Assembly (NCBI GenBank): GCA_019894885.1
Contig: JAGXNP010000009.1
Coordinates: 1-38,549, forward strand
From: Promethearchaeota archaeon
Lineage (GTDB): Archaea > Asgardarchaeota > Lokiarchaeia > Sigyniarchaeales > SOKP01
Reading direction: 5' to 3'
Length of the DNA stretch: 38,549 bases
Numbering within the stretch: the first letter of the stretch is position 1; each line of letters starts with the position of its first letter. Position numbers and translations under genes: made by a program. This document shows positions 20,813 to 22,350 of this stretch, piece by piece. Under the pieces are notes generated by a model. That model was not told the DNA's origin and did no database searches. It saw only the letters and a list, made by a program, of their open reading frames with translations.

Positions 20813-20988
20813 CAAACTTTGATAGACATATCCTTTTTTTTTAACTAGAAGCAATTGTTACTATCTGAAAATTAATTATCTTTAAAATTTAAACCTTATT
20901 TAATTATATAATTATCTCATTCTAAATAACTATGGATTAAACTCTCGTTCAGTAGAATTATCGAAAAAACTTTAAGGTGTAAAATAGT

Positions 20989-21672
20989 ATTATTGAGATT
21001 GGAAAAGAAACAATTAACCCAACAAAAATAATATGCATTGGTACGAACTATATGGATCACATAGAAGAAACTAAGTTAGAAGTGCCAAAAGAACCAGTTC
21101 TTTTTCCAAAGACTATAAACTGCCTTATCCCACACGGTGCACCGATTATTTATCCTAGATGGATTCACGACAATCGTAAATTCAACAGGATTGATTACGA
21201 AGTAGAACTAGCTTTTATTATAAAAGATAAATGTAAGTATGTAAAAGCTAACAAAGCGTACGATCATATTTTAGGGTATACGATATTTAACGATATTACC
21301 GCTAGAAAGATACAGGTTAAAGATATAGCTTCAAGATTACCTTGGTTTCGCTCTAAAGCTTTAGATACCTTTGGTCCAATAGGTCCCAGAATTGTAAGCC
21401 ATCCGGAAATCGAAAATCCCCACAATCTTAAAATCGAACTAAAATTAAATGGAGAAATTAAGCAATCGTCAAATACAAAACATTTATTATTCAAAATCCC
21501 TGAACTTTTAGAAAATATTTCACAATTTTTTACTATGGAACCGGGCGATATTGTAGCTACAGGTACCCCGTCAGGTATAGGTCCAATCAAACCCGGAGAT
21601 CGTATAGAAGCTTCGATCGAAAAAATTGGAACCTTATCAAATAGGGTTATTCTAGAGGAGGAGTTGAGTTAA
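20989..21672 (+). CDS. Fumarylacetoacetate hydrolase-family protein, copy 1 (proposed AUU start)
   Basis: The listed ORF starts at ATG 21052. Upstream in frame [M]IEIGKETINPTKIICIGTNYMDH aligns with copy 2 MIKIGKTTINPTKILCLGRNYLDH. Stop at 20980 and no ATG/GTG/TTG between; ATT 20989 aligns with the TTG start of copy 2. Confidence 0.9.
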   Translation: MIEIGKETINPTKIICIGTNYMDHIEETKLEVPKEPVLFPKTINCLIPHGAPIIYPRWIHDNRKFNRIDYEVELAFIIKDKCKYVKANKAYDHILGYTIFNDITARKIQVKDIASRLPWFRSKALDTFGPIGPRIVSHPEIENPHNLKIELKLNGEIKQSSNTKHLLFKIPELLENISQFFTMEPGDIVATGTPSGIGPIKPGDRIEASIEKIGTLSNRVILEEELS

Positions 21673-22350
21673 TTGATTAAAATTGGAAAAACTACGATAA
21701 ATCCAACAAAAATTTTGTGTTTAGGGCGCAATTACTTAGATCACATTAAAGAAACAAACGCACCTGTTCCTACGGAACCTGTTTTTTTTGTTAAGACTTT
21801 AAATACGCTTATAACTGACAACGAACCAATAATTTACCCGAAAATTCTATATGAAAGTGAGAAGTATAATAGAGTCGATCACGAAGTAGAACTCGCTTTT
21901 ATTATTTTTCAAACATGTAAAAAAGTTTCAGCGGATGTTGCATTCGATTATATCCAAGGTTACACGATTTTTCTTGATTTAACTGCGAGAACTATGCAAA
22001 AAAGCGATAGAAATATAAATTTACCATGGTATAGAAGCAAAAACTTCGATTCATTTGGGCCTATAGGACCAAGAATAGTTCCATGTAGTGAAATTTCCGA
22101 CCCTCATAACTTATCAATTCAATTAAAAGTTAATGGACAGACAAGACAATTTTCGAATACCAAACATATGTTGTTTAGAATCCCTCAAATACTAGAATAT
22201 TTATCTAAATTTGTAACATTGAAAAGAGGAGATATAATCGCTACAGGTACTCCAAGTGGAATAAGTCCGATACAACCAGGAGATATAATAGAAGCATCTA
22301 TTGAAAAAATAGGTACGATTACGCACGAAGTTATTTTAGAACTGGATTAA
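21673..22350 (+). CDS. Fumarylacetoacetate hydrolase-family protein, copy 2
   Basis: GRNYLDHIKE, VDHEVELAFII, GYTIFLDLTAR, SFGPIGPRIV, ATGTPSGISPIQPGD motifs. Confidence 0.92.
   Translation: MIKIGKTTINPTKILCLGRNYLDHIKETNAPVPTEPVFFVKTLNTLITDNEPIIYPKILYESEKYNRVDHEVELAFIIFQTCKKVSADVAFDYIQGYTIFLDLTARTMQKSDRNINLPWYRSKNFDSFGPIGPRIVPCSEISDPHNLSIQLKVNGQTRQFSNTKHMLFRIPQILEYLSKFVTLKRGDIIATGTPSGISPIQPGDIIEASIEKIGTITHEVILELD

Follow-up and report, generated by a model that had tools for sequence, protein, structure and literature searches.

A tandem pair of FAH genes

The window, by which we mean the whole 38,549-nucleotide stretch of DNA analyzed here, a contig from a Lokiarchaeota MAG, contains two FAH genes arranged in tandem and transcribed rightwards. 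Copy 1 (20989–21672, + strand) encodes 227 amino acids plus a stop codon, and copy 2 (21673–22350, + strand), which has a TTG start, adjoins the copy 1 stop. Both belong to PF01557 (FAA_hydrolase; curated cut-off 23.9 bits), with copy 1 scoring 232.9 bits (E 4e-69) and copy 2 scoring 221.8 bits (E 1e-65), and the two align without gaps from codon 1 with 62% identity over 223 residues. Copy 1 is HpcE/FAHD1-like and its best solved relative is HpcE (1gtt; 2e-54, with the alignment running from residue 14). The FAH sequence family and core region are shared with HpcE, FAHD1 and YcgM, although the FAH proteins here fall under the equivalog cut-off of every NCBIfam model.

A sequence-only reading of this DNA had proposed that copy 1 starts with AUU behind an AAGGTG core, in a frame bounded by a TAA and with no ATG, GTG or TTG open to it, and these features are confirmed. 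From 20974 the codons run AAGGTG, TAA, AAT, AGT, ATT (20989), ATT (20992), GAG, ATT, GGA, AAA. The Shine-Dalgarno (SD) core AAGGTG (20974–20979, +) is followed by an in-frame TAA (20980–20982, +) that closes the frame 5′ of copy 1, and no ATG, GTG or TTG occurs in the copy 1 frame from this TAA to codon 22, where the first canonical start codon is an ATG (Met22; 21052–21054, +).

Two adjacent codons could serve as the start, the ATT at 20989–20991 (+) and a second ATT at 20992–20994 (+), the latter corresponding to the ATG position in most congeneric orthologues. Genome-wide, most starts lie 8–13 from the final G of the aligned GGAGG; the last G of the GG lies 12 from ATT 20989 and 15 from ATT 20992, which favors 20989, as does the presence of TTT at codon 2 in one orthologue (L004). 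Judged from spacing and alignment, the start is probably ATT 20989, with initiation at ATT 20992 being rather unlikely. The tandem duplicate had been offered as support. Copy 2 begins TTG ATT AAA ATT GGA AAA at 21673, but it says little about precisely which codon is the start, because most congeneric copy 1 orthologues have ATG at 20992. We note that nearly all congeners have ATG where copy 2 of the window has TTG (21673–21675).

Start codons among FAH orthologues

Orthologues were compared across approximately 65 genomes of the family, with the FAH gene found in 45 of the 65. First, the ATT site and the AAGGTG core are kept, the latter identically, in two separately assembled congeners, G021 (L005) and G002 (L004). 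Codons 1 and 2 are ATT ATT in the window and in L005, and ATT TTT in L004. The in-frame TAA is also present in L005 and is AAA in L004, where an in-frame GTG that is part of the AAGGTG core, three codons 5′ of codon 1, is open to the coding frame. Secondly, ATG occupies the next codon in most congeners, with codon 2 (20992) being ATG in L006, L007, L008, L010, L012, L014, L015 and L018. The equivalent codon is ATA in L009, L011 and L013, a second clade that has ATT ATT ATA behind a strong AAGGAG and whose sisters L010, L012 and L014 have GTG/ATG...ATG. Thirdly, in genus g8 the start codon of copy 2 is variously ATG (L043, L081, L098), TTG (L048), ATA (L047) or ATT (L051, L053, L084), at a constant distance from GAAGGTGAA. 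Canonical starts are lacking before the conserved coding sequence in copy 1 of the window, L005, L009, L011 and L013, and in copy 2 of L047, L051, L053 and L084. On the FAH protein tree at least three changes of start state are forced by well-supported branches, and five is the simplest reconstruction.

The sequence-only reading had named two ways in which it could fail, and both can be rejected. A sequencing or assembly error at 20989–20994 is conceivable in a MAG assembly in which a one-base change would create a start codon, but the ATT is common to independent assemblies (G002/L033, JAHQWJ; G021/L034, JAEOTS), so error is ruled out to a negligible residue; a second clade and other genes are also alike. 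The other is that copy 1 is a decaying pseudogene with a lost start while copy 2, which has a canonical start in the window, is the working gene. However, dN/dS in the AUU clade is low over the whole gene (0.069 for codons 3–21 and 0.088 for codons 22–220), there is no stop or frameshift within copy 1, two other species, with proteins 86–90% identical to copy 1, have retained the startless state, and the same state is found in the single-copy pheT and in aIF1 (see below). Codons 3–21 of copy 1 are under purifying selection with a constraint equal to that of the remainder, which fits neither a pseudogene, a most unlikely reading, nor a start at ATG 21052.

Initiation at ATG 21052 would require the upstream conservation to be that of a regulatory or overlapping element, and an ATG or TTG is indeed present at that codon in most copy 1 orthologues. 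We nevertheless consider it very unlikely, with Met22 being internal, as the upstream conservation is at the amino acid level with synonymous change, ATG is at codon 1 or 2 in most orthologues, and the FAH domain, including GTNY, begins upstream. The PF01557 model starts at copy 1 residue 13, and a protein begun at 21052 would lack the first nine residues of the model, including CIGTNY. A further alternative, translation that begins out of frame at TTG 20993 and relies on a programmed −1 frameshift, draws on a TTG lying across codons 2–3 in the window, L004 and L005, but there is no common slippery site, frame-1 codons are conserved from residue 4, and other AUH (AUU, AUA or AUC) genes have no such TTG, making this extremely improbable. 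Together, the orthologues, the constraint on codons 3–21 and the SD spacing argue for an AUU start of copy 1.

Probable non-canonical starts in pheT and a longin/roadblock-like GTPase gene

In the window's own genome the PheT gene (L115, 69–1748, − strand) has an AUA start, preceded by AGGTGA and 6 nt. All 12 of the closest genomes, comprising that of the window and those of 11 congeners, have ATA immediately ahead of P-T-L-E-L, and position 1 of the NCBIfam pheT_arch model maps to this codon. Elsewhere the same codon is ATT in L169 and L222, and ATG, TTG or GTG in the others. L222 (G047), with ATT at the start position, is of another family and independent of f1, and contains an in-frame TTG upstream.

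A gene for a longin/roadblock-like protein with a small GTPase (L110, 4813–6126, − strand) has AUU, AUA or AUC starts across the family. The Arf/Ras domain is recognized by Pfam, and we take the N-terminal part to be longin/roadblock-like. Of 30 family genomes, 28 have ATT, ATA or ATC at the start codon, one has ATG and one has ACG; each of the 17 loci outside the family has ATG, GTG or TTG. The SD is of the GGTGA form, with its TGA usually the in-frame stop, and (A/T)GGTGA plus 6 nt precedes the start in most of these genes. The C-terminus of the window-genome protein contains proline-rich repeats (EPPKPIETPPTPK) and a masked stretch.

None of the 92 codons in the PheT and longin start columns lies outside AUG and its single-base neighbors, whereas 22% of codons in internal aliphatic (I/V/L/M-exchanging) columns do (305/1370; 209/759 plus 96/611). 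We therefore conclude that selection is for an initiator and not for isoleucine.

The aIF1 gene

The aIF1 (SUI1) proteins score above the cut-off of the archaeal subfamily PRK00939. In family f1 the gene typically has AAAGGTTGTGA, nine nucleotides, and then ATT AAA GAC GAC GAN ATT TGT. Of the 45 family loci, 38 lack any canonical start in the interval from the in-frame stop to the zinc knuckle, seven have GTG alone, and none has an ATG. The conserved leader AAAGGTTGTGA with an AUU start is found in L285 (G000:C118), L284, L286, L287 and L294–L316; this leader alignment was drawn with a pattern that requires ATH, and the 38/45 count comes from a separate analysis. The leader also contains an in-frame TTG followed at once by TGA, a start-stop pair. 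Readthrough of the stop 5′ of aIF1 was considered and rejected, as tandem TGA TAA stops are present in many genomes.

Other Asgard families differ in the codon used; outside f1 the exact codon is the author's reading, and several families contribute just one genome or a few. AUA is seen in f2 (in part), f5, f7, f12, f13 and one of f22; f8 has either CUG or GUG at a single aligned position, f25 has CUG and f15 has GUG, and many further families have ATG. Within f8, CTG is present in L372, L374, L375, L378, L381 and L348 where sister genomes carry GTG.

Initiator tRNA and a model for initiation

The initiator tRNA anticodon is CAU (CAT in the gene) in relatives of the window genome; a pattern search of the genome itself did not find the gene, perhaps reflecting an incomplete assembly or an intron. 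A changed initiator anticodon was considered and rejected, as the true initiators have CAT only and other pattern matches are not tRNA-like. The initiator tRNA genes in L250, L253, L254, L259 and L261–L269 contain insertions, probably introns, that follow the anticodon arm or interrupt the T arm, and ARAGORN misses most of these insertion-bearing genes.

In the mechanism that we propose, the SD element would position the 30S subunit and the CAU initiator tRNA would accept AUU, AUA or AUC as a near-cognate codon, such that the AUU of FAH copy 1 would be read as methionine by the ordinary initiator. Copy 1 is very likely an intact gene that is translated from AUU by means of its SD and a CAU initiator tRNA, and one of several genes, including aIF1, with near-cognate starts; we infer that ribosomes initiate at the AUU and that the first residue is Met. 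A canonical start could instead arise in the RNA, by editing of the first codon or from a short spliced leader that supplies AUG. The DNA alone is compatible with this and tRNA-intron-like insertions occur in these genomes, but the SD spacing fits a DNA-encoded AUH codon and we know of no editing of mRNA start codons in archaea; we regard this as highly improbable.

Near-cognate initiation from AUH codons may be sensitive to aIF1. Data from Pyrococcus show that aIF1 destabilises P-site accommodation of the initiator tRNA (PMC6237735), and because of this activity the yield of AUH genes should drop at high aIF1, with an aIF1 gene that has its own AUU being self-limiting. Given the established role of aIF1, we assume that it discriminates against near-cognate codons in Lokiarchaeota, and the level of aIF1 would then set the output of both the AUU-started genes and aIF1 itself. 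We put at about even the chances of the broader proposal, that Asgard aIF1 is under infC-like autoregulation through AUU, AUA, AUC or CUG starts that evolved repeatedly, and that a small AUH regulon (FAH copy 1, pheT and the longin/roadblock GTPase) reads the aIF1 level.

Relation to known systems

To our knowledge aIF1/SUI1 and IF3 are not homologous. In bacteria, where AUU starts are known (PMC4611024), the IF3 gene infC has an AUU start through which IF3 autoregulates (Butler et al. 1987, as cited in PMC9845219). The parallel is that the gene for the fidelity factor itself has AUU, here aIF1 in f1, while other lineages have AUA or CUG; the differences are that the domain here is Archaea and that autoregulation is a proposal. 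Eukaryotic eIF1 autoregulates through an AUG in poor context (Ivanov et al. 2010, as cited in PMC6237735 and PMC9845219) and is similar in that a homologue of aIF1 has a suboptimal start site of its own, although the weakness there is in the AUG context and here is in the near-cognate codon itself. If the proposal for aIF1 is correct, it would connect IF3 feedback in bacteria with eIF1 feedback in eukaryotes, whether through convergence or through a common logic.

Lokiarchaeota are relatives of eukaryotes. A review of archaeal SD-led initiation names only AUG, GUG and UUG as starts, with AUU, AUA and non-AUG absent (PMC7531240); the genes described here share the SD-like element and CAU initiator tRNA of that system, but use AUU, AUA and AUC codons. 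A recent Asgard review describes SDs as rare in Lokiarchaea (PMC12993045). A search of mainly open-access literature outside bioRxiv found no paper on Asgard non-canonical starts or the aIF1 start. As judged by comparative analysis, AUU, AUA and AUC starts appear to be a property of several genes of this Lokiarchaeota family at conserved positions, and not a curiosity of one gene. Because archaeal gene finders and reviews admit AUG, GUG and UUG only, Asgard annotation probably shortens or overlooks AUH-started genes, among them the essential pheT and aIF1.

Frequency of non-canonical starts and further candidates

The search for candidates sampled approximately 370 kb of the window's own genome and 338 kb of the congener G010. 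Among the orthologue pairs in the sampled stretches of these two genomes, FAH copy 1 is the only one lacking a canonical start. As a rough estimate, non-canonical starts account for about 2% of the sampled genes, and for this reason the efficiency of AUH initiation may be low; an SD-only scan was too noisy to give a genome-wide rate. A sugar-binding-protein candidate in L152, with a perfect SD and ATA, was rejected, as a downstream ATG seems the likelier start and the contig may be contamination. A further AUH candidate is an acyl-CoA synthetase gene (L105, 6330–8162, − strand), in which 31 codons without a canonical start follow an in-frame TGA.
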